DNA of 64,000 bases from positions 39,808 to 103,807 of the IMG/VR virus record IMGVR_UViG_3300043411_001118. The stretch is one strand, 5' to 3'. This document shows positions 4,232-59,453 of the stretch, piece after piece. Position 1 is the stretch's first letter; each line of letters begins with the position of its first letter. The stretch comes from a virus. The notes beneath the pieces are model-generated. The model ran no database searches, was not told the origin of the DNA, and saw only the letters and a list, made by a program, of their open reading frames with translations. The translations under genes were made by a program, and so were the position numbers.

Positions 4232-4995
4232 AGATTCGTTTGTGGTAGTTTTATAGCAACCATTCCAACCGCCTCAACTAGCTTCGCATCGTCAATTAAG
4301 TGGTCAGCGAGCCGCGCCATAACCTGAGACGCATACTTTTCTGCCTGTGTTCCTGTCCCATTGTATTCACGGAAACACTCCCTCAGCCTTTTACTCTTTG
4401 GGTTAACTTCGCGCCTGTCGTAAAGACACTGTGAGATTATTTTGAGTCCACAATCCAAATTGGTGCTGGTCGATAATAGGTCTGTGTAATTTTCGATCCC
4501 ACAAAAATCCTTCCAGATGATATATGACACTTGCATTAAACCAAACGAAGAGAATTGAAGATCGTACTCGATATCATTCATCCACGCTTGCTTTGGATAT
4601 TTTTTGCTATATTGGGTTTTCCAAGATTCCTCAAACCGAATTCTTGTTGGAGCAAGGTTCGATTCCTGGTCCACGATTGCCCAGGTGATGGCCGGACTGA
4701 CCCCGTACTTCGATGAATACGTTCTAACGACTGTATCTAGGTCGGCAACGGATGGACCGTTCTCTGGTCTATACTCAATAACTTTAAAATGCTCTTTGAT
4801 TCTGTATGAATAATAGTCAACTTTATCTTGTGACCAAGTGAGAGCCTGTTCTGTATATTTTGCAACTTGAACTGAAACCAAAATGAACGCGATTAAAAAG
4901 AAAGAATACTTAAAGGTTCTTTTCCAGAATAATTTTTTTCTATTTGGAATTTCCTGCTCTTTAGTGAGCGTAATAATATTTTCAGAATTAGACAT
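4228..4995 (-). CDS. Membrane-anchored lytic transglycosylase (SLT fold)
   Basis: One transmembrane helix (about residues 28-48) follows a basic cytoplasmic tail, giving a type II topology with the enzyme in the periplasm. The catalytic domain has AITWAIVDQESN with the presumptive catalytic Glu, then SSFGLMQVS (the GLMQ motif) and REYNGTG, followed by YASQVMARL. This order is typical of soluble-lytic-transglycosylase domains that cut peptidoglycan. A strong promoter lies 45 bases upstream. It could act in DNA entry, local wall opening or lysis; the phage also has a separate lysozyme. Confidence 0.8.
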   Translation of the reverse strand: MSNSENIITLTKEQEIPNRKKLFWKRTFKYSFFLIAFILVSVQVAKYTEQALTWSQDKVDYYSYRIKEHFKVIEYRPENGPSVADLDTVVRTYSSKYGVSPAITWAIVDQESNLAPTRIRFEESWKTQYSKKYPKQAWMNDIEYDLQFSSFGLMQVSYIIWKDFCGIENYTDLLSTSTNLDCGLKIISQCLYDRREVNPKSKRLRECFREYNGTGTQAEKYASQVMARLADHLIDDAKLVEAVGMVAIKLPQTNL

Positions 4996-5039
4996 ATAAT
5001 CTCCTGTTTCTGATTAAAAAATTAAACTACAATAGAGCG

Positions 5040-5068
5040 AGAATATCAAACCGATCCAAAATTGTCAA
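5040..5068 (-). promoter_or_regulatory. Strong sigma70-type promoter for the transglycosylase gene
   Basis: TTGACA (5063-5068), exactly 17 bases, then TATTCT (5040-5045) on the minus strand. It lies between the tRNA and the transglycosylase start and would allow early expression by the unmodified host polymerase. Confidence 0.7.
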
Positions 5069-5104
5069 AACAAATTTACTTTGTTGGGAACGGTGTTTGA
5101 AAGG

Positions 5105-5177
5105 TTGCAGGGACGGGATTTGCACCCGTGTTCTACAGAGTATGAGTCTGTCGAGATACTAGCTTCTCCACCCTGCT
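5105..5177 (-). tRNA. tRNA with CAU anticodon (Met or Ile2)
   Basis: A 73-nt cloverleaf folds on the minus strand: acceptor stem with six clean pairs plus an unpaired A1-A72, D stem GAGA/TCTC, anticodon stem ACAGA/TCTGT with loop CTCATAC, variable region AGAAC, T stem ACGGG/CCCGT with loop TGCAAAT. CCA is not encoded. The anticodon CAU fits elongator or initiator Met, or Ile2 if the C is converted to lysidine. The mismatch at 1-72 is an initiator-tRNA hallmark, but the anticodon stem lacks the three G-C pairs of initiators. Identity is therefore open. Confidence 0.8.
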
Positions 5178-5183
5178 ATGAAT

Positions 5184-5510
5184 CTATTCGTTATTTATGA
5201 TTTTGAAGTCCAAGATAGTATCCAAGTTGAACGATCTCCATTCATTGGTCTTGGTTTCAAGGACCGGCAAATTTTTTGGATTCTTGGCCCTTGGCTTAGT
5301 TTCTTCCCCCAATTCTGCCTTTGTTGGTGGAAGCATTTCATTTATTAGTGTGCATTCCATCACGCGCTTCGTTCCATCAGCTTTTTGAAAAGTGACTTCG
5401 CAAATATTCTGCTTCATACATTGCTGCATGACGTGTCTGAGCGTATACAAGTATTTTTGCTCTAGAGTTAATTCGGTAACAGACGTTGGTTCCATTGTAT
5501 TTTCTGTCAT
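5184..5510 (-). CDS. Small SH3-like beta-barrel protein
   Basis: The 108-aa protein has a helical N-terminus and the pattern EVTFQKADGTKRVMECTL, then NEWRSFNLDTILDFKI. I recognise this from a small family common in T4-like and other large phages and described as SH3 beta-barrel proteins. Function is unknown. Its ATG overlaps the TGA of the gene upstream (ATGA), so they are coupled. Confidence 0.65.
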   Translation of the reverse strand: MTENTMEPTSVTELTLEQKYLYTLRHVMQQCMKQNICEVTFQKADGTKRVMECTLINEMLPPTKAELGEETKPRAKNPKNLPVLETKTNEWRSFNLDTILDFKIINNE

Positions 5511-12203: not shown

Positions 12204-12435
12204 CTTTGGATGGATCTATAAGTCCTTGAATATACTCAAGAAGTACAGAAGAATTGCTCATCTCTCCCCAGGACGATTTCTCGCCTCCGATCTTCACACA
12301 CTCCCTATTACAAAAATCTTGAGCGTTTTTTAAAATGAAGTTGGCGCAGGATGTGTATGCCTCGATCAAATTTGGATCGAGCTTCTGAACAGATTCATAC
12401 GAAAATTTCCTAGCTTCTAGACCAACTGCACTCAT
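12193..12435 (-). CDS. Hypothetical protein, 80 aa
   Basis: ATG start overlapping the deformylase stop (ATGA). Three cysteines (CANFILKNAQDFCNREC) sit in predicted helices. No family recognised. Tight coupling with deformylase and spanins indicates a shared transcript. Confidence 0.55.
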   Translation of the reverse strand: MSAVGLEARKFSYESVQKLDPNLIEAYTSCANFILKNAQDFCNRECVKIGGEKSSWGEMSNSSVLLEYIQGLIDPSKDEV

Positions 12436-13130
12436 GGATTCACCAATTGATATCTAACATTTTTTACTTTTCTTGGAATGAGATATTGTGGACCAGTCTT
12501 TTTAAACCATCTTCGAAAAATATCTTTCTTAAGATTGCTCAACCGATCAATGAATAACGTTCCAATCAAATGATCCATTTCGTGCTGAACACAACACGCC
12601 GCCTTTCCGGTGAAGGTTTCTGTTTTTTCTTCACCTGTTCTAGTCTGATATTTTAACGTCACACTATCAAATCTGTTTACCTTTTCAGACCACCCATGAA
12701 ATGACAAACATCCCTCAATGGAAATGATCTCTCCGCTTGTATCAACAAATGATGGATTGATAAATTCTCTTGCGTCTGTGAAATTATCTGAAACATCCAT
12801 CACAAACATGCTCATGTTAAGTCCGACCTGAACCGCCGCAACGCCATAGCCGCCGTATGCATACATTGTGTTTTTCATTCGGTCTAGGCGAATTGCAACA
12901 TCTTCATCAAAGATTGTTACTTTATTTGCAATCGTCCTGAGTGGACCCACTCCCAATTGAGAATTTAACTCCTTACTTGTCAGAGTCAAAATCTTATATA
13001 ACTCAACAACGTCTCTTTCATCTGTTGTTAATTTTGGAGTCTCTATTGGAGTCTCTATTGGAGTCTCTATTGGAGTCTCTATTGGAGTCTCTATTGGAGT
13101 CTCTATTGGAGTCACGGCATTTTCTTGCAT
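12432..13130 (-). CDS. def: Peptide deformylase with repeat-built N-terminal linker
   Basis: All three deformylase motifs are present: GYGVAAVQ (94-101), EGCLS (139-143) with the metal Cys, and HEMDH (183-187). It removes formyl groups from nascent proteins and may favour phage protein synthesis, as proposed for aquatic phage deformylases. The enzyme core begins near residue 34. Before it lies PIET repeated six times, encoded by a perfect 12-base tandem repeat, which ordinary deformylases lack. The C-terminus is extended and basic. Confidence 0.9.
   Translation of the reverse strand: MQENAVTPIETPIETPIETPIETPIETPIETPKLTTDERDVVELYKILTLTSKELNSQLGVGPLRTIANKVTIFDEDVAIRLDRMKNTMYAYGGYGVAAVQVGLNMSMFVMDVSDNFTDAREFINPSFVDTSGEIISIEGCLSFHGWSEKVNRFDSVTLKYQTRTGEEKTETFTGKAACCVQHEMDHLIGTLFIDRLSNLKKDIFRRWFKKTGPQYLIPRKVKNVRYQLVNP
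13036..13107 (-). repeat. Six perfect copies of a 12-base tandem repeat
   Basis: The unit GGAGTCTCTATT (plus strand) occurs six times without a mismatch, plus a partial seventh copy. It encodes PIET repeats in the deformylase N-terminus. Being a multiple of three, copy-number change by slippage would keep the frame. Confidence 0.95.
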
Positions 13131-13632: not shown

Positions 13633-14568
13633 CTACCACTTAGTTCCAAAAGACAACACCCCATATGTGTGTGTGTTTGCCTTTTGTTCAACATAATCCT
13701 TAGTTCTAATATTGTAGTCGAATCGAATGATGTAGTTGTGATACTCAACATGAATACCCATATTCATTGAATTAACAACGGGTTCTGAATCAACAGTATG
13801 AATATTATCCTGAAACAAACTCCCATCATAATGGAGATTTCTAACAACCGCACGAGCCGACAAATCAAGAGAAGTATAACAAATAAAATCATCCAATTTC
13901 TGAGCATTGTCCATACCCGGAACATTGTATCCGAGTCTCCATCCATGAACGAATTCGAAATCTGTATGGACCGTTCCTGCCCTATAATTTGTTGCTCCGA
14001 CAGAAACAAAATCCCAATCACGAAAATTAGAACGATGGTTTTCCCACATCCTAGAATAGTTAATGTTCAATGTTGGTTCATCTGCAATCTGATTGTCCCA
14101 TCCATTTGGTGGTGCGCCCTTTCCCAGATCGTTATGAATAAATTTTTGAAGTCCCTCCGCGCCCGAATACTTTCCGACAACACCCAATGCAATTTCTGTA
14201 CTGATTCTTCGTTCACTATTTGCATTGATTCTCTTGGCTCTAAATTCTAAGAGTCCAGAATATGGAACATCATCTTCAATGACATTCGGATTTCGAATGT
14301 CATCTGGTGTGTACATGTTCTGTTCCACCGTGAATAATATTCTGGAAAGTTTCTTTGGATCTTGATCATCTACAACCAAAGAAGGAATCGTTTCTGCAAA
14401 ATTTTTAATCGTCTCCGAAGCCTTTTCAGCTTCAATGTTAGTCTGAAACCTAATCTGGGACGTAAAATTTTCATCTGTATTTCCGATGATGTCGTTTGAG
14501 AGATTGAACGAATGTCTTCCGGTGCAACTTGATAGGATTAGTATACAGAGAATTAAGATTTTTTTCAC
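13633..14568 (-). CDS. lpxR: LpxR-family lipid A 3'-O-deacylase-like outer-membrane protein
   Basis: The 311-aa protein carries the LpxR (DUF2219) landmarks in order: NDIIGNTDENFTSQIR (25-40), VEQNMYTPDDI (81-91), DDVPYSGLL (99-107), KFIHNDLG (142-149, candidate catalytic H145), GWDNQIADEP, and a C-terminal run of strands ending YGVLSFGTKW with a terminal aromatic residue as in beta-barrels. LpxR enzymes remove the 3'-acyloxyacyl group of lipid A. The signal peptide ends LSSC, so it may also be lipidated. The start is GTG with AAGGA 8 bases upstream. Such a gene is unusual in a phage; alteration of the infected cell's surface is inferred. Confidence 0.85.
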   Translation of the reverse strand: MKKILILCILILSSCTGRHSFNLSNDIIGNTDENFTSQIRFQTNIEAEKASETIKNFAETIPSLVVDDQDPKKLSRILFTVEQNMYTPDDIRNPNVIEDDVPYSGLLEFRAKRINANSERRISTEIALGVVGKYSGAEGLQKFIHNDLGKGAPPNGWDNQIADEPTLNINYSRMWENHRSNFRDWDFVSVGATNYRAGTVHTDFEFVHGWRLGYNVPGMDNAQKLDDFICYTSLDLSARAVVRNLHYDGSLFQDNIHTVDSEPVVNSMNMGIHVEYHNYIIRFDYNIRTKDYVEQKANTHTYGVLSFGTKW

Positions 14569-15097: not shown

Positions 15098-15667
15098 CTA
15101 TTTATTTGGTTTTGGGCGGCGTGTGAGTTTTAAGAAATCGTCAAATGTCTTCTTTTTGTATTTTTCTTGTGCAGATTTTGAAACGGCTGGATCATCTCCA
15201 TCATGACCCGTTCCGGCAATGGCTCCGGTCCCGACTGCATTAGCCGCTGCATCCTCAGTGAATGACTTGATCCATTCCTCAAATTCTTTTCTTCTTTCCT
15301 GAACCATTTCAAACCAATCCGTAACAGACTCAACTAATAGATCTGGATCTCGATCATAGTCTTTATTATTCTGTTCTTTTAATAGGAACAATGCAGCCGC
15401 GAAGGACGCGATTCTGGTTTTTCCGAATGGAAGTTTTTCTAAGATTCTTTTTAAATTGAATACCAATCTATCAAATAGTGTGTATGCATTTTTTTCTTCT
15501 GGAGTTTTTAAATCTTTCCCTTTCTTTAAAACCTTCCCATCCTTATCGATAATTCCCAATTCGAATGCTTTAGTTTTTTCAAATGGTGTGGTCAGACGCT
15601 TCAGTGTTGAATACAACATCAACAAATCAATCGCAACATTTTCTGTTAGAAAACATTTTGTTTTCAT
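15098..15667 (-). CDS. Conserved phage protein of unknown function, 189 aa
   Basis: Helical protein with YTLFDRLVFNLKRILEKL and KTRIASFAAALFLLKEQ, then a flexible Gly/Ala stretch (AVGTGAIAGTGHDGDD) and a basic C-terminus. The layout resembles a protein conserved among aquatic T4-like phages and may be virion-associated, but I cannot name it. Its ATG overlaps the TGA of the gene upstream. Confidence 0.6.
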   Translation of the reverse strand: MKTKCFLTENVAIDLLMLYSTLKRLTTPFEKTKAFELGIIDKDGKVLKKGKDLKTPEEKNAYTLFDRLVFNLKRILEKLPFGKTRIASFAAALFLLKEQNNKDYDRDPDLLVESVTDWFEMVQERRKEFEEWIKSFTEDAAANAVGTGAIAGTGHDGDDPAVSKSAQEKYKKKTFDDFLKLTRRPKPNK

Positions 15668-17400: not shown

Positions 17401-18159
17401 TTATTGAATGGAGCTAATTAGCTTTCTGGCACTAACAATTTCAAAAAAGGTTCTACCTATGATAGAATTCAACTTATCCAGTCTGAACAGGGTATCTCCC
17501 CAGATTGGTCTATAATGTAGACAGTTCTCCGATGGAACAGCTAACAATTGACCTGTCGTTCTCATCGTCCCTCGACCATCTCCCATCCGTAAGGGAGAAT
17601 CGTCCTGGTCCAATTGCATCAATACGTCCATCAATTCGATTGGAGTCTTACTCATCGACATCGATATTTCTGGAATTTTTATATCATCTCGATTAGAAAT
17701 GACTGTTGACGATGACCTTGATAACTCTTTAACAGCCGATGAATATACACCATCTATATTACTGCCATCTAACACAAATGCTTTCTCGGAATTCATCACC
17801 AAAACATTTCCTGTGATCTCTTGTTCCTTTAAAATCTCAATTGACTCTTCTGGAGTTGATGCATATAAAGCTTTTCTGACTCTCAGACCCTCCGGTGAAT
17901 TGTATTTTCTTTCTTCTCGATTCGCCCGTCTAATATCGGATATCTCATTTTCGATATCGATTCTTGGACAAACCAAAACAACTAAACCGTGTTCGTTTAA
18001 TCCTTCGGAGAATCGACTGACCTCATCCCAAAGGAACAAACGTTCGATATCATTTCGAAAACTCTTTCTGATTCTGATCCTTGGCTTATAATTACAGTCT
18101 CGATTCTTCGCCGCGACAAATCCAACACCATTAAAATATTTGCAAACTATAGTTGACAT
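17401..18159 (-). CDS. Ntn-hydrolase-like protein (acyltransferase/C45-like)
   Basis: Begins MSTIVCKYFNGVGFVAAKNRDCNY and continues with WDEVSRFSEGLNEHGLVVL, GNVLVMNSEKAFVLDG and TVISNRDD. This order resembles the N-terminal-nucleophile fold of C45/TANGO2-like proteins that occur in some aquatic T4-like phages. If so C6 may be the nucleophile after trimming. Substrate unknown. It shares one base with the neighbouring HExxH gene (TAATG-type overlap), so it belongs to that operon. Confidence 0.5.
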   Translation of the reverse strand: MSTIVCKYFNGVGFVAAKNRDCNYKPRIRIRKSFRNDIERLFLWDEVSRFSEGLNEHGLVVLVCPRIDIENEISDIRRANREERKYNSPEGLRVRKALYASTPEESIEILKEQEITGNVLVMNSEKAFVLDGSNIDGVYSSAVKELSRSSSTVISNRDDIKIPEISMSMSKTPIELMDVLMQLDQDDSPLRMGDGRGTMRTTGQLLAVPSENCLHYRPIWGDTLFRLDKLNSIIGRTFFEIVSARKLISSIQ

Positions 18160-18935
18160 TATCCAAACCTTTTCTGATAAGCATTAAAAAGCGAGAACTG
18201 TTTTTTCACCATAGATGCCCAAGATTTTGCTCGATTTTGGAGTGAGTGATCTCCCTCGATGAAAGTTGCGTAATATGCATTAATCAAATATGAAACGACA
18301 TCTGCTGAGTATGTGTCATCGGGAAGATTGTATTTTTTAATCGCCGCCTGTGATACATCCCAATATGCATTTATCCGCTTATCAATGTCATCAGGAAGAA
18401 TGAGTCGCGGAACATCATCCACCAAATAATCGATAAACCCATAAAATTTAGTAACTGGAACACCACTAAATTTCAGAACTATCCCCTGTACCCACGGCTG
18501 AAATTCTATGTCTTGAAAAATATATTTAGCACCATCCAACCCACGTCCACCTGTCTCATAATTAAGAGTTTTCCAAGGCGTTAGTTTTTGTCTGGAGTGT
18601 ATGAATTCGTGGATAAATGTTGATAGTAGGGTTTGTGCAGTTCTGGGCTTATTCCATATCGAATCGTGAACCGTAGGAACTCCCAAATAAATTTCATCTG
18701 GTGTCCTGAATTCTCCGTTAATTGATCCCGATATACGAAACACAACCTCCATTTGCGGCCCAAATTGTTTCGTTTCGTTTGAAAGTTGATCGGCCATTGA
18801 TACCAGATCAACATTACCCTTCGCCCCCATGTCACGAATATTTTTTGAAATAATTTCTTTGGACGATTGATAGAGTTTGTAAAACTTATCAATGAACGAT
18901 TCATTCAGAAACGATTTAAAGGAACGCCCTGACAT
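18159..18935 (-). CDS. HExxH metallopeptidase-like protein with capsid-targeting-like N-terminus (paralogue A)
   Basis: The central TFIHEFIHSRQ gives a zincin HExxH with a candidate third ligand in the conserved YIFQDIEFQPWVQG (Glu). The N-terminus, MSGRSFKSFLNE then SF, resembles the T4 internal-protein targeting peptide MKTYQEFIAE, with LNE fitting the gp21 cleavage rule (L/I)xE. It is a diverged tandem copy of the next gene, sharing the HEFIHSRQ, FQPWxQG and final RFG segments. A packaged, injected protease is inferred, not shown. Confidence 0.6.
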   Translation of the reverse strand: MSGRSFKSFLNESFIDKFYKLYQSSKEIISKNIRDMGAKGNVDLVSMADQLSNETKQFGPQMEVVFRISGSINGEFRTPDEIYLGVPTVHDSIWNKPRTAQTLLSTFIHEFIHSRQKLTPWKTLNYETGGRGLDGAKYIFQDIEFQPWVQGIVLKFSGVPVTKFYGFIDYLVDDVPRLILPDDIDKRINAYWDVSQAAIKKYNLPDDTYSADVVSYLINAYYATFIEGDHSLQNRAKSWASMVKKQFSLFNAYQKRFG

Positions 18936-19729
18936 TATCCAAACCTTCTTCGATATATCTGAAACAATTTAAATTCTTTTTTAATAACCTTGATCCAAGA
19001 CGTTGCTCGACTTTTTAACTCATCATTACCAATTTGGAATGTCGTATTATATACATCTATTAAATTCGAAACTGCGTTTGTTGTTGATGGATCTTTAGGA
19101 ATATTAAATTTTTGTAAGATTTTTGAAGTAGCGACAACAATTTCAAATTGTCGTTGACTATCTGGACCCAAAAAAGAAAATTTCATTTCTGGAACTTCGG
19201 TTATTAGTGAATCGACAAACGCATTAAAATTTCCTTCGGGAACATCTATAAATCTTAAAATGGTTCCCTGTATCCACGGTTGAAATTCCAAATCTTGGAA
19301 CATATATTTGGCTTGTTTTAGTGAAGATCTGCCACGTTGAATATAGGATGATTTAAAATATTCCGCTGAAATTTCTTGCCGAGAATGAATGAACTCATGA
19401 ATTATGGTCGAAATCAATTTGGTTATTATATGTTCTTTTCTCCAAACAGGATCAACAAACATCGGAACATATAAATTTATTTTTTTATCGTCTGAAAAGT
19501 ATACTCCGGAGATTGAGATGTTATTTTTTCTATTTTGTATAAACTCAATTTCAATCTTATCTCCAAACCTAGAAAATTCCAAAGAAATTTTCCTCTCAAT
19601 TTTAGGAATGGCATCAGAAATTTTGTTGTTTGCTACTAGCTCATCATTCAAAATTTTTGTGATATTCTGGTAAACAGTATAGAACTTGTCCACGAACGAT
19701 TCATTTAGGAATGTCTTGAATGTTCGCAC
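18935..19729 (-). CDS. HExxH metallopeptidase-like protein with capsid-targeting-like N-terminus (paralogue B)
   Basis: Begins MRTFKTFLNE then SFVDKFYTVYQ, closely parallel to paralogue A, and contains TIIHEFIHSRQ, then AKYMFQDLEFQPWIQG and a C-terminal YRRRFG. Both proteins are about 260 aa and were clearly made by tandem duplication followed by divergence. The first ten residues match the T4 capsid-targeting pattern (basic, aromatic, ending LNE). Stop and next start overlap by one base, so both copies are translated from one message. Confidence 0.62.
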   Translation of the reverse strand: MRTFKTFLNESFVDKFYTVYQNITKILNDELVANNKISDAIPKIERKISLEFSRFGDKIEIEFIQNRKNNISISGVYFSDDKKINLYVPMFVDPVWRKEHIITKLISTIIHEFIHSRQEISAEYFKSSYIQRGRSSLKQAKYMFQDLEFQPWIQGTILRFIDVPEGNFNAFVDSLITEVPEMKFSFLGPDSQRQFEIVVATSKILQKFNIPKDPSTTNAVSNLIDVYNTTFQIGNDELKSRATSWIKVIKKEFKLFQIYRRRFG

Positions 19730-49101: not shown

Positions 49102-49365
49102 TTATTTTTGACAATATAGCTCCAATTCAAGCTTTTCATATTCAGCCCCAGAAGCGTAGACATCCCTCTGAATGGATACCAGATAGGCTTTTAATGCTGG
49201 ACTAATGAGAATAGAACCTTGGTTTATTTTAACAGCAACGTATCTAACGTAGCTGTTGTAGGTACAGATTACATCCGATACCTTAATTTTTTGTTCCGGA
49301 TATTTTCTTTTGGTGAGAAGGAATACCAGCCGTTCATATCGTTTTCGCGTCAATAATCTTTTCAT
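49102..49365 (-). CDS. Hypothetical protein, 87 aa
   Basis: ATG at 49363-49365 with GGAGGG 3 bases before. Basic start MKRLLTRKRYERLVFLLTKRK then a beta-rich middle. The frame extends upstream to 49419 but only through the promoter. One of several small genes with private early promoters. No family recognised. Confidence 0.6.
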   Translation of the reverse strand: MKRLLTRKRYERLVFLLTKRKYPEQKIKVSDVICTYNSYVRYVAVKINQGSILISPALKAYLVSIQRDVYASGAEYEKLELELYCQK

Positions 49366-49389
49366 ATGCCCTCCGTTGGTTACATACAT

Positions 49390-49419
49390 ATGATGACATA
49401 AATCATCCAAACGTGTCAA
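49390..49419 (-). promoter_or_regulatory. Early promoter of the TTGACA-18-CATCAT type
   Basis: TTGACA (49414-49419), 18 bases, CATCAT (49390-49395). The bases after TTGACA (CGTTTGGATGATTTATG) resemble those of the promoter at 51031 (CATTTGGAAAGATTGTG), showing a common descent or a shared regulator site. Confidence 0.6.
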
Positions 49420-50760: not shown

Positions 50761-51000
50761 TTATTCCTCAAAAGTGTGTTTGGATTTATTGAGAATGTAG
50801 TCTTGGCATTGTGTAATATTCTCTGAAGGAAGACCGAAGTTTCCCAATATTTGACTTGTTCTCTTTAGTTCTGAGACTGAACGAGTTACTGACGTTGGTT
50901 CGTTTAAGAAATATTTTCGTTGTGCTAAGATAAATAGTTTTACGACCGGTTTGAATCGACTGGTCATATCCAGGGAACTAATTAATTTTCCAATCGTCAT
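50761..51000 (-). CDS. Hypothetical protein, 79 aa
   Basis: ATG 50998-51000 with AGGAGA 6 bases before. MTIGKLISSLDMTSRFKPVV then VTRSVSELKRTSQIL. First gene after the promoter at 51031. No family recognised. Confidence 0.58.
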   Translation of the reverse strand: MTIGKLISSLDMTSRFKPVVKLFILAQRKYFLNEPTSVTRSVSELKRTSQILGNFGLPSENITQCQDYILNKSKHTFEE

Positions 51001-51030
51001 GATGTATCTCCTATCAATCTTTACTTCTAT

Positions 51031-51060
51031 ATGATGCCACAATCTTTCCAAATGTGTCAA
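51031..51060 (-). promoter_or_regulatory. Early promoter of the TTGACA-18-CATCAT type
   Basis: TTGACA (51055-51060), 18 bases, CATCAT (51031-51036). It is back to back with the Hsp20 promoter on the other strand, only 9 bases separating the two -35 boxes. Confidence 0.6.
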
Positions 51061-51690: not shown

Positions 51691-53007
51691 TTACATCAAA
51701 TTCTTGATGTCGATAATTCTCATGTACTTGTTAGTGTTATATGTCAGTGCGCCGTCGATTGTCGATGTAGCAAACGGATTTGATACAACAGCATATCGAG
51801 TCCGGAATCCCATTTTTGGTTGGAAGCTCGACGGATCAATTGCACGAGACAATTCAAGTGGCACGTACGGACAAAAATATATGCCAGCATCCATTTCGTT
51901 GTTCCCTTTGTACACGATACATGCATAGTTCAATGCAGCACTTGGTACATAAGGATCAACGAACACTTTAAATCTCTTGTTGAGTGTACCAACAAAAGTA
52001 TTTTGGGTGTCGCCATCATGTGACAAACTATCTTCTAGTTTGCTGTCATCCAAGAGACCAGCAATCGACAGAGCCGATGCAACATCCGAAGAACAGAGGA
52101 TGTTGTTTCCACGTCCACGTCGAGTATCTTTAGCAATGTGGTTCGCTTCTCTTTCAAGCTGAAACATCAAGCCTTTGATTTTTTCTTCCATCCATCGACC
52201 GTTTGAGTCAGCGTCTAGATCGAATTCACCGGCAACCGCTGTATTGTGTTGAGCACCTTTTTTAGCGTTGTTGTAAATACGTCGAATAAACTCTCTGTTC
52301 ATTTCGGTATTGATTTCAGTTGACAGGATATTCATCAATTCTGATTCAGCATCAAGACCATGAACGTTCTTCAAGTCTTGCTGAATTTCCATTGTCCACT
52401 CGGCTTTTAGTGCGCGAGTTTTTGCTGTCGCAGTAACTTTGTCGATGGAAATCGCCATTTCAGCCATTGTTCCACCGCCAGAGGTTCCGAGTGCTTCACC
52501 GTCAGCAGTATCCATTGCTGTTCCGGGTTTGTAATCGTTCGCTCCAGTTTGACCAGCAGGAGTAGTTCCAGCTTGTGTTCCTGTTCCGGAAAATACTGTA
52601 TTAGCTTCGTCATACAGAGCCTCTGTTCCACCCTGAGTCGAATATTTTGCACGTAGCGCGAACACCAGGCCCGTAGGACCGGACATTGGTTGGTTCCCCA
52701 TGAGGTCAGTGCTCAGGAGGTTCGGCATTGCACGTCGAACAAGTGAAATGAGGATTGGATCATAACCCTTCAGGTTTGTGTTCGTAGGAAACGCACCAGA
52801 TTGGTTAGCATGAGCCGCTTCACCCAACATATCTCCACCAGAGATTTTGTTGAAGTTGTGTTGGCTTTCTAGCATTTGAGCAACAATAGCTTTGCGCTCA
52901 AAACTCTTGATGGCAGGTAATCCTTCCATCTCCAAAAGTGGCTTCCACTTTTGAACCAATCGCTCTTTCTTAGAATTGATTTGCTGTATTTCTTGTTCAA
53001 TTAACAT
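51691..53007 (-). CDS. 23: Major capsid protein (gp23)
   Basis: 438 aa, HK97-type fold as in T4 gp23. Landmarks: NFNKISGGDMLGEAAHANQSG, RRAMPNLLSTDLMGNQPMSGP, TGLVFALRAKYS, and RRGRGNNILCSSDVASALS, FKVFVDPYVPS, and ELSRAIDPSSFQPKMGFRTRY. The scissile site for gp21 is predicted after E63 (LGE, then AA), next to T4's E65. Late promoter CTAAATAA 39 bases upstream; terminator downstream. Its C-terminus is complete. Confidence 0.96.
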   Translation of the reverse strand: MLIEQEIQQINSKKERLVQKWKPLLEMEGLPAIKSFERKAIVAQMLESQHNFNKISGGDMLGEAAHANQSGAFPTNTNLKGYDPILISLVRRAMPNLLSTDLMGNQPMSGPTGLVFALRAKYSTQGGTEALYDEANTVFSGTGTQAGTTPAGQTGANDYKPGTAMDTADGEALGTSGGGTMAEMAISIDKVTATAKTRALKAEWTMEIQQDLKNVHGLDAESELMNILSTEINTEMNREFIRRIYNNAKKGAQHNTAVAGEFDLDADSNGRWMEEKIKGLMFQLEREANHIAKDTRRGRGNNILCSSDVASALSIAGLLDDSKLEDSLSHDGDTQNTFVGTLNKRFKVFVDPYVPSAALNYACIVYKGNNEMDAGIYFCPYVPLELSRAIDPSSFQPKMGFRTRYAVVSNPFATSTIDGALTYNTNKYMRIIDIKNLM

Positions 53008-53045
53008 TTTTTTCTCCGGTTCCTAAAATCTATATTTCGTAATGT

Positions 53046-53053
53046 TTATTTAG
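53046..53053 (-). promoter_or_regulatory. Late promoter of gene 23
   Basis: CTAAATAA on the minus strand, 39 bases before the ATG. Confidence 0.65.
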
Positions 53054-53070
53054 ACTTTCAAAAATTTCAT

Positions 53071-54606
53071 TTATCGAACTGTACCTTTAATGACTTTTGC
53101 CAATGCTGAAACTTCTGAATCGACAGCCGCTTCTTCTTTAATAAGCGAGCCGTTACCCAATGCAGTTTCTAGCAATTGCTTGCCCTTAGAGGTTTTCTTC
53201 GAACTGTATACTTCCTTGAGTTGGTTAATATTTTTAACAAACTCTTCTTTTGTTTTTGTCGAAACTTGTTCCATCAATGGTCGAAGTTTTGACTGTTCAG
53301 AAAGTGGAAGATCCTTAATGGATTTTTCGATCAATGAACGTTTCTGTTCTTTGATGATGCGAAGTTTGAGTTTTTTATTTTCTTTTGTTAAAGAAATTTG
53401 ATTCTCAAGTTCTTCGTTCAATTTTTTCTTCAGTTGCTTAGTTTCAGCAATTTTTTGTTCTGCTAAATCTAATTTGTTATCTGGAAGATTAATATTGTGA
53501 TTCGAAAATACTACTTGAAGATCGCGCACAACACCTTCAGCAAGTTCAGAAACTAGTCCCGCTTGAAGCGCAACTCTGTTTTCTTTAGCCCACTGAGTGG
53601 TAACGTGATCGAGGTATCGATCTAGAGCTTCGGTGAGCGTACCCATCTGACCCTTGATCGCTTCGTTCAATTTCTTCTTGAAGACTTTGTTCAGTTTTGA
53701 ACAATGACTCTTAAGAGTAGTTTCATAAATCAGACTTGCTTTTTTCTTGAAGTCAGATTCAGAAAGAGAATTTTTGCCCTTAACAATAACGGCAATATCT
53801 TCCTGGATACTCTTTGGGAGTTCGACTTCTAGTTCTTTTTCATCATCTTCAGACAATTTTTCTTCGTCTTCGTCGCCTTCAGCTTCAACGACTTTCTTTT
53901 CTTCCTCGTCATCACCTTCAGCTTCAACTACTTTCTTTTCTTCCTCATCGTCACCTTCGGCTTCGGAGACTTTCTCTTTGTCTTCCTCGTCTTTTTTAGC
54001 AAAAGGATTTTCGCCCTCATCGACTTTCTTTTCTTCCTCATCTTCGGCTTCCGCGAATGGCTTATTTTTATCGCCATCATCTCCAGCCTTATCAGAAATT
54101 TCATCGTCAGAAATTAGATCTTTTTTATCGCCGTCAACTTCGACTTCATCTTCTTCGGTTGAGATCGACCAATCGATAAGTTTTTCTAATTCTTCATCGT
54201 CATCTTCGCCTTCGGAGACTTTCTCTTCATCGTCTTTTTTAGCGAATGGGTTTCCGGCTTCATCGACTTTCTTTTCTTCCTTGTCATCACCTTCAGCTTC
54301 GACAACTTTCTCTTTGTCCTCTTCGTCTGAATCAGCTTCGGCTAGTTTTTCTTCGTCTTCGTCGCCCTCAGCTTCGACAACTTTCTTTTCTTCCTCATCG
54401 TCGCCTTCAGCTTCAGCAACAGGTGCTTTACCAACGGCGGCAGCAGCTTTTTCGCTAGCTGGATCATTTTCGATAGTAGTGGCATCTTTACCGATACCAG
54501 CACTGTATTTTCCTTGGGCCGCAAGTTCGGCTTCATTAAGCTCCTTTAACAGCGAGGCTGTTTTAGTTAGTGTCGATTTGCTCAGTGCCGGTCTTAGATT
54601 AGCCAT
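53071..54606 (-). CDS. 22: Prohead scaffold core protein (gp22) with a long acidic repeat insert
   Basis: The C-terminal 230 residues (SIQEDIAVIVKGKNSLSESDF onwards, with LDRYLDHVTTQWAKENRVAL) match the T4 gp22 scaffold, a helical coiled coil later cut up by gp21. N-terminal to it about 215 residues are made of repeats of EAEGDDEEEKKVV and related words (also NPFAKKDEEDK twice), giving 511 aa instead of about 270. The insert is extremely acidic. The reverse strand is open over this whole stretch (53747-54802, Ser-rich) as a codon artefact. Confidence 0.85.
   Translation of the reverse strand: MANLRPALSKSTLTKTASLLKELNEAELAAQGKYSAGIGKDATTIENDPASEKAAAAVGKAPVAEAEGDDEEEKKVVEAEGDEDEEKLAEADSDEEDKEKVVEAEGDDKEEKKVDEAGNPFAKKDDEEKVSEGEDDDEELEKLIDWSISTEEDEVEVDGDKKDLISDDEISDKAGDDGDKNKPFAEAEDEEEKKVDEGENPFAKKDEEDKEKVSEAEGDDEEEKKVVEAEGDDEEEKKVVEAEGDEDEEKLSEDDEKELEVELPKSIQEDIAVIVKGKNSLSESDFKKKASLIYETTLKSHCSKLNKVFKKKLNEAIKGQMGTLTEALDRYLDHVTTQWAKENRVALQAGLVSELAEGVVRDLQVVFSNHNINLPDNKLDLAEQKIAETKQLKKKLNEELENQISLTKENKKLKLRIIKEQKRSLIEKSIKDLPLSEQSKLRPLMEQVSTKTKEEFVKNINQLKEVYSSKKTSKGKQLLETALGNGSLIKEEAAVDSEVSALAKVIKGTVR
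53850..54440 (-). repeat. Imperfect coding repeats, acidic region of gp22
   Basis: Repeated 30-40 base units rich in CTTCTTCG/CATCGTC (plus strand) encode the EAEGDDEEEKKVVEAEG words. Repeats are degenerate but several neighbouring copies are nearly identical, so copy-number change is expected. Confidence 0.8.
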
Positions 54607-54631
54607 TTACGTTTCTCCAGAAAAACTAAAT

Positions 54632-54639
54632 TTATTTAG
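54632..54639 (-). promoter_or_regulatory. Late promoter of gene 22
   Basis: CTAAATAA on the minus strand, 26 bases before the ATG. Confidence 0.6.
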
Positions 54640-54662
54640 TGTTGTTATTACTTTGAAGTATC

Positions 54663-55340
54663 TTAAAATTTCCCCATTCGATGTTTTCCCATTAAAATAT
54701 CAGCGAAAATCTTCAAATAGGTTGCGTTCTTTTTTTCCTCGTTCATCGTCAAAGATGCGGCATTTATGGTCTTTTTTAGCTTCTTTGCTTCTGTTTCTGT
54801 GAGGATGCCGTTTTCAAAAAGGTATTCTTTACATTCGAGAATTCCATTAACAAATGCTTCTGGTGCAGATGGATCAGAAACGATGTCAATTGTTGATAAC
54901 CACAAATCTTCCTGGACGATATCGACTCCATTTTCATTTGCTCGAAGTGATCCCAATGCCCTGGATGAAACACCAATCTGTACATTGTCTTTCAGAAGTG
55001 CTTTGACAATATTTCCTACAGGAGTATCTAAAATTTTTGCTTTACCAATGTAATTCGCGCCCTCTTTGTGGAGAGAAACAATCTTGTGTGACGCTCGTTC
55101 GTAATTAATTCGTGGGCTGTCTGGATGATTTAATTCTCCGACCGCTAAGTTAGTTAGAATTTTTTCTTGGACGAATTGTTGAACGGCTTTATCCATGATT
55201 TTTTCTGGATAAATTCTTCCGTTTCGATTTTGAACATCGGCCTGAAGGAAAATTCCCTCGATGTAATAACTGACTTCTCCACCTTCGTTTGCTTCAACGA
55301 GTGGTTTAACAGAATCAATACGTTCAACAATCAGTTTCAC
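54663..55340 (-). CDS. 21: Prohead protease (gp21)
   Basis: 225 aa like T4 gp21 (212). VGELNHPDSPRINYERASH carries the catalytic His and QIGVSSRALGSL the catalytic Ser (T4 S140 region), as in the U9/herpes-type prohead proteases. It cleaves gp23, gp22 and internal proteins at (L/I)xE sites during head maturation. Located directly between its substrates' genes and the portal block. Confidence 0.92.
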   Translation of the reverse strand: MKLIVERIDSVKPLVEANEGGEVSYYIEGIFLQADVQNRNGRIYPEKIMDKAVQQFVQEKILTNLAVGELNHPDSPRINYERASHKIVSLHKEGANYIGKAKILDTPVGNIVKALLKDNVQIGVSSRALGSLRANENGVDIVQEDLWLSTIDIVSDPSAPEAFVNGILECKEYLFENGILTETEAKKLKKTINAASLTMNEEKKNATYLKIFADILMGKHRMGKF

Positions 55341-55754
55341 TTATAGATCTCCCGATGGCCAAGTAAATCCGACTCGCTTAAGATTCAAAATAATTGTATA
55401 TCCGCTAGCTGCCGTGAAATTTCTCGTTGACAGAAGAATGTCGCCTGTTGGAGTGACCGAATTATCCGGAATTGGTGCGGCCATTTCTTCATCTAATCGG
55501 AGCATCCCATCACCACTTAACACAACGGCGGTTGCATCGGTTGCACCGTCAAACGTCAATACAACAGAACCACCAGTAATGTTGTATGCAATTTTATTGA
55601 TATTAAATTTTGCGCCAGCTTGGTGTCCTGTGAATGTTGAAGCATCAACTTTCAAGACGCTAGCTTCACCAGTTCCATCCGAAACGTTGGTTAGTTTCAA
55701 GACGACCGTACTTGGATTTTGTTTCAAGACCTGTGTGGTTACGACATCAGCCAT
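55341..55754 (-). CDS. Conserved virion structural protein
   Basis: 137 aa beginning MADVVTTQVLKQNPSTVVLK then LTNVSDGTGEASVLKVDAS and ending NLKRVGFTW. This protein is typical of aquatic T4-like phages at this position, between the core proteins and gp21. All-beta, so possibly a head decoration or neck protein. Stop and the gp21 start are adjacent. Confidence 0.65.
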   Translation of the reverse strand: MADVVTTQVLKQNPSTVVLKLTNVSDGTGEASVLKVDASTFTGHQAGAKFNINKIAYNITGGSVVLTFDGATDATAVVLSGDGMLRLDEEMAAPIPDNSVTPTGDILLSTRNFTAASGYTIILNLKRVGFTWPSGDL

Positions 55755-55755
55755 T

Positions 55756-56157
55756 TTAGTTTTTCACCGAGCTAAAAGCGAATTCCAACATTTTTAAAAA
55801 TCCACCTTTACCAGATGAAACTTTCTCAACAAAAACTCCACGATTTTTTTCACTCTTGAAGGCTTCATAGACTTGAACCAGCGCACCCGCACTGATCGAA
55901 TCTACGTCCATTGAAGAACCGTCCTTGAATTTTACCTGAGATGTTTTGTGAGTCTCTGAAATACTCTTAAGATCTGAAATGACATCTTCAGTTAGACTTG
56001 GTTTACCAAAAAGATTTTGAGCAACATTTCTTTTAAGTTCAGAAATTCTTAGTGCAATCTTATCTCGGAGAACTGAATGAACAGCTTCTCGAACACCACT
56101 GGCATCTTTTTTTCTTGCACAGTTAACAATATTTTCTAATTTCGACTGATTCTTCAT
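55756..56157 (-). CDS. Prohead core protein (gp68-like)
   Basis: 133 aa. DASGVREAVHSVLRDKIALRISELKRNVAQNLFGK is the conserved core-protein motif of T4-like phages; the rest includes a DNA/actin-like basic loop (KFKDGSSMDVDSIS). Follows the small gp67-like gene. Assembly-core role inferred from position and motif. Confidence 0.65.
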   Translation of the reverse strand: MKNQSKLENIVNCARKKDASGVREAVHSVLRDKIALRISELKRNVAQNLFGKPSLTEDVISDLKSISETHKTSQVKFKDGSSMDVDSISAGALVQVYEAFKSEKNRGVFVEKVSSGKGGFLKMLEFAFSSVKN

Positions 56158-56158
56158 C

Positions 56159-56305
56159 TTACTTCTCTCTTGATTTTGGTTTTTCGGTCACAGGCTTTTC
56201 GATCACAGGTTTAACTGCTTCTTTCTTGACTTCCTTTTGCGGAACTTCTTTTGGTTGCTCAGAACCAACATAAGGCGTTCCAGAATATCCACCACGTCTT
56301 TCCAT
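56159..56305 (-). CDS. Small prohead core protein (gp67-like), 48 aa
   Basis: Reads MERRGGYSGTPYVGSEQ, then PKEVPQKEVKKEAVKPVIEK and PVTEKPKSREK before TAA. Pro/Lys/Glu-rich and highly charged, in the place of T4 gene 67 (PIP) between portal and gp68. AGAGGA precedes the ATG, and the stop lies one base from the next start. The family match is by position and composition only. Confidence 0.6.
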   Translation of the reverse strand: MERRGGYSGTPYVGSEQPKEVPQKEVKKEAVKPVIEKPVTEKPKSREK

Positions 56306-56324
56306 ACGATTTCCTCTTTGTTAT

Positions 56325-59300
56325 TTATTGTTTATCATCGTCAAGGTCTTCATCGATCACATCTAAAAACTCGAAGTCTCTATCAGAAACGGAAATCTCC
56401 TTTTCGTCGGATTCTTCCGACTCATCAGAATCGTCCTGGAAATCTTCATCCGATTCCTTCGATTCTGGACCACTTTCAACAGTCTCTTGATCACCAGCAA
56501 ACCCAAGTTCTTTTGGTGAATCGTCCTGATCCAATTGTTCAGTATTTTGATCTCCACCAATTTCTTCTAATTCTTCCTCAGTCAATTTGAAAAAATTCTT
56601 CTTAACGAATTCTTTTGAAATGTATCCTTCGGTGATAGGATTTTCGACACCAGCTTCTTTGGCTAAGGTAAGTCTTTCTCGCCAAATCTCAGCCTCTTTT
56701 AATTCTGAAAAATACGAGTCGGTTGCCCACTCATAAACAATTTTCGATTCATTCTCTTCCCAATCTTCCTCACTAACGATATTTTTTAATATGGATTGAA
56801 TTCGTAGTGGTTGATTAAAAAATTGTGTTGCGAATGAATTTCTTAGTTGATTGATGAAGCGCGAAAATTTTAATTCCTCTCTAGTAATTTCTGATGCTCG
56901 ACCAATTGAGAATCCATTTTCTGGATCGAGTCTCATTGTCGGAACGTTTAATGAGTTGTAGAATTTTTTCTTGAAGTAGTTTACGTCTTCTATTTCTCCG
57001 AGATTTGAATTGTTTGTGAATACTCCTACATCTAGAGCGAAGTTATGAAATGAGTGATATTGCTCATCAACATCTATCGTTAATGTTCCTACTTCGATTT
57101 TTTGTGGTAGAAATTCAATGCTCACAATTTTGTGATTATATAATTCTACTTCTTTTCTAAATTGTTTCCATCCAGAGTAACCAAATTTCTTCACAAGTTT
57201 GTAAAGGTGGGTGTGTTTAAATTGGTCGTTATTCCAATTTGCACAATGAGTATCTTTGTTGATATCAATGAAGTGTTGTAAAATGATTTTGTTTTGATTT
57301 AATTCTGTTGTGACATCATGAATCGTTGTGTGGTGTGTGGTTTTTCCAGAACAAATTTTAACGACAGCATCTAAAATGGTTTTGTCTAGAACGATGCGCT
57401 GATGTTCAAAAACCAAGTCTTTAAATTTCTTATCAGAAAATCTAGTTTTGCCTCGGATCGAATGTGCGGCACAAAGTTCTTTGTATTTTTCAGTACCCTT
57501 AAACTTACTCCATCCATTTCGTATTGATTTAGAAAATTCTTTGCGAAATTTTGGATCTGTCTTTAAGAGATCCTGGGTACGTGCATTTCCTAGTTTTCCA
57601 CTTTTCTTACATTTGATACGATGTTGTTCTAAATCGTTTCCGGTTAGATTTTGATAGTGTTTCTTAATTCCTTTTTGCATTTTTTGGCGAATACTCTTTC
57701 GTTCTTTTGTAGAAAGAGAAGCCCACCAAGACGAGGATCGTTTAGAAAGTTCCTTAGTATATTGCTCCCACATAACAGGATCGGATTTCATTTTTTCGAA
57801 TGCCAATCGAGCTAATTCTGTGGCTTGTTCTTGTTGTTCTTTAGTCTTAAATCCTAAAGATCCATGATACAACATATGATCTGTTGTGTTCATCCATCGA
57901 AGATTTTCTGGGCTATTATTAAATCGATTAAAATCTAAGTGGTGAACAACATGCTTAGATAATTTACTCGTCTCTGGATCGAAAACCATTTCATAAATTT
58001 CACCTTTTGTGCGGAAATATTCGGCAACCATTCGATGTGTAGAAACCCATTTTTTGTTATGGTTTTGATAGATCCATTCGTAATTATTTTTACTTGAACG
58101 AATTGGTGCATGTTTGGTATTGTGGGCAATTAAGCTTTCACCAACCAAAAGATCCTTTGCCTCAACACTTCCCTTTCCGATAATTGGAAATTTGTGATCG
58201 GGAGTACAGATAATTTCTTTACCATTGTCGAGTGTGAGTTTAAGAACGTTGGCACTCTTATGAGTCACACCAGCCCAACTAATTTTTCCAGGGACGATCT
58301 CACCTGTTTCTGGGTTAGTGCTATACGACCAATTTAATTTTCCTTGTTTATACTCATCAGCTAGATCTCGAATTGTTAACGTTCGTCCATCAAGCAGAGG
58401 AACTTTCGTATCCATAGCAAGACAACCACCAGGGAGAGTGTCGATTTCCGTTGCGGTACTTCCACCCTTTCGCGGAATCCAAAAATCTTCTGTCATGGCC
58501 TGAATTCTTCGTTGTGAATTGACACCACCATCAGATGAATCGTAAGAAATTTTATTTTTGAACTTAGTCATCATTTCGCGCATGTGTGATTCGACATGGA
58601 TATTTTGCATATCTCCAATATCGATATAAAACACACGTCTTTCCGGCGCTCTTGAGAGTCGATAGATAACAACCGAATCTTCCATCTCTCGGAGTTTAGT
58701 CCAAGGTCGGTATGCTTTATCTAAGTGAGAAATAATTTTCTGTGCGCGAACATCTAACTTTCCTGAGTGAACATAGATGATCGAATTGACATCCAGGATG
58801 GTTCCCGATGTGGACATTGTGTTAGTTGAAGATGGTGTATTCAGTAGTCCAACAGGATTGAAAACGAAATATTCTCTTTCGGTTTTATATACAGATACTC
58901 CAGTGCTAGAAACGTCTTTTGAAACTTCTCTAATTTTTGCAATTTGTCTTGGATCAATGAATCGAATTTCTTGAATTCCTTCTTTGATGTTGTCTTGGTT
59001 TACGACAATATGAAAATAACTTTTTCCGTCGATGTAGTTTGTTCTGAACAGTAGGTGCGCGTCTCGATTGTAATTTACTAGTCCACAAATATATTCAAAT
59101 TCTTCAGTAAGAATTTTTTTAACATCGTCACTAAAATTTGTTTTGTCTAAATTTATTGAGGTTGGACCCTCGTTATCTTCATGGACGATTGCATCGTTAA
59201 CGACTTCAGAAATGGCCCGATCACAATCGGCATCCATTGACATCATTCGATATCGAGAAATTAATTCTGCCTCTGTTCCGTAAATTCCAGACTCTAGAAG

Positions 59301-59453
59301 TGGAAGAAAGCTAGTGATCAATCCACCGGAACTGATTCCAGCATCGATGGTGACAGCACCATCGTTAGACATCTGTGGAACAACAGAAACTGCTTTTTTC
59401 TCTTTTACTTTGAGAGAGAATGCATTTCGGATGAACCCGAAAAAATCAGCCAT
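56325..59453 (-). CDS. 20: Portal vertex protein (gp20) interrupted by an intein
   Basis: 1042 aa precursor. N-extein residues 1-343: RYRMMSMDADCDRAISEVVNDAI, YNRDAHLLFRTNYIDG and WTKLREMEDSVVIYRLSRAPERRVFYIDIG are T4 portal segments. The portal resumes at S816 (SNLGEIEDVNYFKKKFYNSL), and the C-terminus is an acidic, Ser-rich tail (QDDSDESEESDEKE). After splicing the 570-aa portal joins TLPGG to SNLGEIEDV. The dodecameric portal nucleates the prohead and passes DNA. Late promoter TATAAATA 35 bases upstream. Confidence 0.95.
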   Translation of the reverse strand: MADFFGFIRNAFSLKVKEKKAVSVVPQMSNDGAVTIDAGISSGGLITSFLPLLESGIYGTEAELISRYRMMSMDADCDRAISEVVNDAIVHEDNEGPTSINLDKTNFSDDVKKILTEEFEYICGLVNYNRDAHLLFRTNYIDGKSYFHIVVNQDNIKEGIQEIRFIDPRQIAKIREVSKDVSSTGVSVYKTEREYFVFNPVGLLNTPSSTNTMSTSGTILDVNSIIYVHSGKLDVRAQKIISHLDKAYRPWTKLREMEDSVVIYRLSRAPERRVFYIDIGDMQNIHVESHMREMMTKFKNKISYDSSDGGVNSQRRIQAMTEDFWIPRKGGSTATEIDTLPGGCLAMDTKVPLLDGRTLTIRDLADEYKQGKLNWSYSTNPETGEIVPGKISWAGVTHKSANVLKLTLDNGKEIICTPDHKFPIIGKGSVEAKDLLVGESLIAHNTKHAPIRSSKNNYEWIYQNHNKKWVSTHRMVAEYFRTKGEIYEMVFDPETSKLSKHVVHHLDFNRFNNSPENLRWMNTTDHMLYHGSLGFKTKEQQEQATELARLAFEKMKSDPVMWEQYTKELSKRSSSWWASLSTKERKSIRQKMQKGIKKHYQNLTGNDLEQHRIKCKKSGKLGNARTQDLLKTDPKFRKEFSKSIRNGWSKFKGTEKYKELCAAHSIRGKTRFSDKKFKDLVFEHQRIVLDKTILDAVVKICSGKTTHHTTIHDVTTELNQNKIILQHFIDINKDTHCANWNNDQFKHTHLYKLVKKFGYSGWKQFRKEVELYNHKIVSIEFLPQKIEVGTLTIDVDEQYHSFHNFALDVGVFTNNSNLGEIEDVNYFKKKFYNSLNVPTMRLDPENGFSIGRASEITREELKFSRFINQLRNSFATQFFNQPLRIQSILKNIVSEEDWEENESKIVYEWATDSYFSELKEAEIWRERLTLAKEAGVENPITEGYISKEFVKKNFFKLTEEELEEIGGDQNTEQLDQDDSPKELGFAGDQETVESGPESKESDEDFQDDSDESEESDEKEISVSDRDFEFLDVIDEDLDDDKQ
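57009..58424 (-). mobile_element. HNH-endonuclease intein inside gp20
   Basis: Residues 344-815 (472 aa) of the gp20 precursor. The intein begins CLAMDTKVPLLDGRTL (C344, N-block A), block B is LTLDNGKEIICTPDHKFPI (TPDH), and the end is QYHSFHNFALDVGVFTNN followed by S (blocks F/G; terminal Asn, +1 Ser). An HNH nuclease lies at 501-530 (VVHHLDFNRFNNSPENLRWM, then HMLYH), with further helical DNA-binding modules to residue 770. Insertion falls in the conserved TLPGGxNLGEIEDV motif. All splicing residues are intact, so it should be active. Confidence 0.92.

Follow-up and report, generated by a model that had tools for sequence, protein, structure and literature searches.

The internal proteins IPI, IPII and IPIII of phage T4 begin with a 10-residue leader that carries an aromatic residue at position 4, F7, a hydrophobic residue at position 8 and E10. 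In IPIII, targeting is mainly set by residues 4 and 7 and processing by residues 8 and 10, and Asp at position 10 stops processing while leaving targeting intact (PMC9026906). T4 internal proteins specifically inhibit GmrSD restriction enzymes (PMC12373910), and T4 also packages an enzyme, the ADP-ribosyltransferase Alt, in its head and injects it (PMC9026906). Early injection has also been proposed for the zincins of polyvalent proteins, in which an HExxH helix and a Glu helix come after a three-stranded sheet (Iyer et al. 2017, PMC5512222).

Here, we describe two adjoining genes of a T4-like phage that encode HExxH proteins beginning with leaders of the T4 type. Our best single reading, held with slightly more belief than doubt, is that the two proteins are leader-packaged, gp21-processed and injected zincin-like metallopeptidases acting on the host. 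This reading builds on the sequence, the paralogy of the proteins, the leader match and its enrichment, and the presence of gp21, while packaging is argued by analogy.

The gene pair and its leaders

The window, i.e. the whole 64 kb stretch of DNA analysed out of a 103.8 kb viral record, comes from a T4-like phage whose gp23 has at most 54% identity to any listed phage record, with the best matches in Methylophilales, Stenotrophomonas and Pelagibacter phages and in cyanophages. A TAATG stop/start overlap joins the two ORFs, an AGAAGG-like ribosome site is present, and the pair is followed, via the same kind of overlap, by a gene that weakly matches C45 autoproteolytic acyltransferases/hydrolases (Table 1). 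The late promoter TATAAATA was not found directly upstream of the pair. Elsewhere in the window, we noted an LpxR-like outer membrane protein (13633-14568; PF09982, E 3e-57), a surprise in a phage, whose start resembles that of a lipoprotein, and a peptide deformylase (12432-13130; E 2.1e-39) with an N-terminal PIETPIET repeat.

In a pairwise comparison the two proteins are paralogues (38% identity, E 6e-59), with different codons at about half of the residues common to both. Identity falls to 17% in residues 24-60 and reaches 50% around HExxH and 62% around the Glu block; in the leader region (residues 4-23) it is 75%, versus 40% overall. Because 10 of the 15 residues shared in this region use different codons, we conclude that the leader has been kept at the protein level and not via recent gene conversion. 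Protein 1 begins with MSGRSFKSFLNESF (core motif SFKSFLNE) and protein 2 with (V/M)RTFKTFLNESF (core motif TFKTFLNE), the former having the same T4 motif moved two residues later; in the AlphaFold2 model of protein 1, leader residues 1-12 have a pLDDT below 50. Because the genes are paralogues, the two leader peptides are not independent evidence. The preliminary description had called attention to tandem paralogues at 18159-19729 with the LNE-ending peptides SFKSFLNE and TFKTFLNE, to HEFIHSRQ in each protein and to a gp21 gene in the same phage, and all of these are present. Searches of phage records, viral contigs and genome contigs, and of 22 leader-bearing records, gave no homologue of the pair; conservation of its catalytic residues is therefore established only between the two paralogues.

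Table 1 Coordinates of the pair and of the other genes discussed; positions are those of the window, and those prefixed L001 lie in the same record outside the window
Feature	Position	Strand	Basis and details
Zincin-like protein 1	18159..18935	(-)	258 aa, ATG start; ORF and paralogue of adjoining gene
Zincin-like protein 2	18935..19729	(-)	264 aa, GTG start; ORF
Protein 1 leader MSGRSFKSFLNE	18900..18935	(-)	Sequence; predicted gp21 cut after E12
Protein 2 leader (V/M)RTFKTFLNE	19700..19729	(-)	Exact T4 register: aromatic 4, F7, L8, E10
HEFIH (H109-H113) of protein 1	18597..18611	(-)	Sequence; within predicted helix 97-115
HEFIH (H111-H115) of protein 2	19385..19399	(-)	Sequence
E144 of protein 1, candidate third zinc ligand (FQDIEFQPW)	18504..18506	(-)	Alignment
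E148 of protein 2, candidate third zinc ligand	19286..19288	(-)	Alignment
Gene next to pair	17401-18159		Weak C45 autoproteolytic acyltransferase/hydrolase match, E 2.6e-4
gp23 major capsid protein	51691..53007	(-)	Similarity to gp23 of T4-like phages
gp21 prohead protease, presumed leader peptidase	54663..55340	(-)	Peptidase_S77 E 1.1e-40; PHROG 207 E 1.7e-66
J-domain protein	L001:5272-6291		E 4.7e-8; leader MKKYSTFLLEA
RelA/SpoT-domain protein	L001:11608-12642		E 7.5e-11; leader MKFSQFLTEL
ORFs opened by TTGACA element	49102-49419, 50761-51060; L001:11064-11462, 15245-15580, 18108-18467		Probable repeated promoter

The HExxH domain

HExxH alone is common, with 7 main ORFs of the record containing it. 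In the pair, HEFIHSRQ is identical at 8/8 positions, most shared residues of the HExxH stretch being encoded by different codons, and both proteins have the Glu block FQDxEFQPW. E144 is invariant in one alignment of seven proteins that included other phage HExxH proteins and is placed differently in another. An AlphaFold2 model of protein 1 generated from two sequences (mean pLDDT 73) has, in order, two helices, three strands, the HExxH helix and further helices, with E144 just before helix 147-155; this predicted order plausibly resembles the zincin core described previously (PMC5512222). NF045830, the NCBIfam HExxH metalloprotease model, matched protein 2 with E 4.5e-4 and 19.5 bits versus a cut-off of 175. 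The pair had no Pfam match, no convincing PDB sequence match, no significant match in fold libraries and no match to a known zincin family at curated cut-off, and no second domain was found in the 258 and 264 aa proteins by Pfam/PHROG searches. Among the 50 best fold matches of protein 1, 13 look like HExxH metallopeptidases by name; because their E-values are about 1 to 6, we gave them no weight. The preliminary description had read both proteins as metalloproteases. HExxH, the candidate third Glu, the predicted element order and the sub-threshold NCBIfam match fit this, while the family and fold searches gave no significant match; judged from sequence and model, a metalloprotease is plausible, and this call is weaker than that for packaging.

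We also considered that the leader is genuine while the HExxH domain is a binding fold rather than a working protease, blocking a host factor through contact as T4 IPI-III do. The specific inhibition of GmrSD enzymes by T4 internal proteins (PMC12373910) and the family and fold searches of the pair would fit such a fold, yet we find it unlikely in view of an HEFIHSRQ that is fully identical at 38% overall identity, the retained FQDxEFQPW block and the different codons behind most shared residues of the HExxH stretch.

Another phage HExxH family, reached via one of the leader matches (L129), occurs in Vibrio and Microcystis phages as well as in uncultured ones. In an alignment of 11 of its proteins (22-54% identity to the first), L8-x-E10 of the leader, HExxH and Glu219 are invariant in 11/11 members while the remaining leader residues vary (e.g. 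MRLQQYLTE, MIPVKTYLRE and MITFNEHLVE). The structural model of this family (pLDDT 83, pTM 0.83) had no PDB match. A first profile comparison with the pair gave P 1.9e-4 over 86 columns; with 11 sequences only 22 columns matched (P 0.0035) and, because the match shrinks in this way, we do not claim common descent. At the sequence level, the combination of leader and HExxH recurs, common descent or not. Among cultured phages, Vibrio phage PVA8 carries leader-bearing HExxH proteins. The HExxH gene of Microcystis phage Mel-JY01 is flanked by genes for a pair of related proteins (L203:2883-3533 and 4663-5325) that start in LxE fashion and, by eye, resemble ADP-ribosyltransferases.

The leader on other proteins

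In gp23 of this phage, a putative gp21 site inferred from the sequence lies after E63, between MLGE and AAHAN, close to the T4 cut position. The genes for gp20-gp23 occupy 51691-59453, placing the pair outside the head gene cluster. This position bears on the possibility that the pair is packaged via its leader but works inside the head, trimming core, scaffold, internal proteins or itself during maturation. Zincins may process polypeptides within the head according to the polyvalent-protein work (PMC5512222), and maturation has been suggested as the role of a zincin in group 1 jumbo phages (PMC7824862); however, gp21 already fills the maturation role, the pair lies outside the head gene cluster and, unlike core maturation factors, it gave no homologue in searches of other T4-like phages, making a function in the head decidedly unlikely.

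The record has 176 main ORFs, of which 4 carry the strict motif [FYW]xx[FYW][LI]xE near the N-terminus versus 0.16 expected (P 2.4e-5), a count that takes in both paralogues in addition to a J-domain and a RelA/SpoT protein. A looser motif was observed 9 times versus 0.38 expected, in a set that takes in a few unconvincing ORFs. At the sequence level, the leader resemblance exceeds chance. Four other proteins of the record begin with a similar leader, i.e. the J-domain protein, which has matches in 197 phage records, the RelA/SpoT-domain protein, which with its leader MKFSQFLTE is a candidate packaged alarmone-type enzyme, and two further proteins starting with MKSFKEILNEA and MKTYKQILKES. A different repeated N-terminus, MTxLDxLWHHI on several ORFs, was rejected as promoter-like DNA starting with TTGACA and misread as coding; the conserved DNA TTGACA...TGGCATCATATA opens several ORFs and is probably a repeated early promoter.

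The preliminary description had proposed searching other T4-like genomes for proteins starting with the same peptide. A degenerate DNA pattern for MK[ST]FKxFLxE beginning at ATG, scanned against viral contigs, matched at least 120 viral-contig stretches, mostly at gene starts (109 of 112 ORFs of at least 60 aa among the matches listed). The cargo is diverse and includes nucleotidyltransferase-, kinase-, J-domain- and ART-like as well as HExxH proteins, the non-HExxH types being judged by eye. A version with Asp in place of Glu had 68 matches in the whole collection; because the Glu total is a lower bound, the two totals do not give a measured ratio. Of note, 39 of 54 gene-start matches of the Asp version have Glu one residue earlier, at position 9. 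Of the 22 long leader-holding records tested, 13 gave a gp21 match, among them 9 of the 10 that reach at least 140 kb; several of these ten are apparently near-identical phages, and the count has no background rate beside it. The SRB7757 homologues of the J-domain and RelA/SpoT proteins keep similar leaders (MKSFKEYISEA and MIEFKQYVLMEN), and a Vibrio phage 32 homologue of one or the other starts with MKSTKQFLMEI; a similar leader was not clear on the Pantoea phage Phynn homologue or the phiM12 RelA/SpoT protein. Because no clear leader proteins were seen in HTVC008M or in the surveyed part of S-PM2, the leader system is not universal.

We then compared the leader with two published virion proteomes, scanning the whole 174.9 kb of S-CREM2 and roughly 200 kb of S-SCSM1 for leaders in T4 register. 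S-CREM2 has four, on the SAM hydrolase/lyase gp6, the kinase gp14, gp136 of unknown function and the cytidylyltransferase gp154, and all four are in the published virion list (PMC10665884), with a probability of such agreement by chance of P 3.5e-4, or 3.8e-3 among proteins of at least 120 aa. The only such leader in S-SCSM1 is that of NMNAT (MKSFLQFLKEA), also a virion protein (PMC9602691), giving 5/5 leader ORFs listed as virion proteins for both cyanophages together. The motif was derived from T4 and this phage beforehand while the exact regular expression was adjusted during the analysis, and an earlier looser expression also matched three S-CREM2 proteins undetected in virions. The authors of the virion work caution that abundant proteins may carry over in CsCl preparations. 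The S-CREM2 virion protein gp12, called Cas9-like, has RFASFMAEAA further inside the protein, and gp13 starts with MKDLHSFLTEQ. The accessible sections of the two virion papers contained no mention of the leader that we could find.

The preliminary description had interpreted the N-termini as capsid-targeting; the T4 register, the unrelated cargo, gp21 and the virion proteomes of two other phages all speak for this, each indirectly, and by analogy packaging of the pair via a T4-type leader is likely. That the leader likeness is a coincidence or simply the shared start of two ordinary intracellular proteins draws on their paralogy, by which they count once, but is very improbable given that the motif is enriched on unrelated proteins of the same genome, recurs at gene starts in other phages and agrees with two virion proteomes.

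Proposed function and relation to known systems

In our preferred reading of the pair as injected metallopeptidases, cleavage, injection, zinc binding, proteolysis and a host target are the steps that we infer. The N-terminal leader of 10-12 residues would dock both proteins in the core of the prohead and would then be cleaved off after LNE by gp21; the mature proteins would remain inside the head and reach the host together with the DNA. The mature part would be a zincin-like metallopeptidase (HExxH and downstream Glu), whose most likely substrate would be a host protein, e.g. a defence factor, cut within the first few minutes after infection.

More generally, we consider it somewhat more likely than not that phages of the T4 superfamily, including those of hosts far removed from E. 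coli, rely on a single short leader to load a large and varied set of injected enzymes, which in this phage would include the paired zincins and the RelA/SpoT and J-domain proteins. If so, injected effectors could be read straight from genome sequence. A leader that predicts packaging would allow injected proteins to be listed for phages without genetics and would explain why virions of cyanophages contain kinases and NMNAT. Candidate early effectors, e.g. proteases, RelA/SpoT and J-domain proteins, could then be tested directly.

Compared with known systems, the pair shares the leader layout of T4 IPI, IPII and IPIII, and in T4 and this phage alike gp21 is encoded in the same genome and the IP-type genes are accessory and variable. 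The two proteins, known here from sequence, are larger than IPI-III and have an HExxH domain, and their mature part, unlike the T4 internal proteins, has no sequence match to any named family. As proposed, the pair would resemble Alt in being head-packaged, injected enzymes; Alt has another fold, chemistry and leader sequence. The polyvalent-protein zincins have an arrangement of strands, HExxH helix and Glu helix that the predicted order in the pair may resemble, but they are multidomain while the pair proteins have a single domain and a short leader. The virion enzymes of S-CREM2 and S-SCSM1, like the pair, have the same leader ahead of unrelated enzymes; these leader proteins were found in virions by mass spectrometry, whereas the pair is known from its genes, and their cargo is a SAM lyase, a kinase, a cytidylyltransferase and NMNAT versus the HExxH domain of the pair. 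As proposed, the pair would belong to the T4-style internal proteins, with a protease-like cargo behind the leader.
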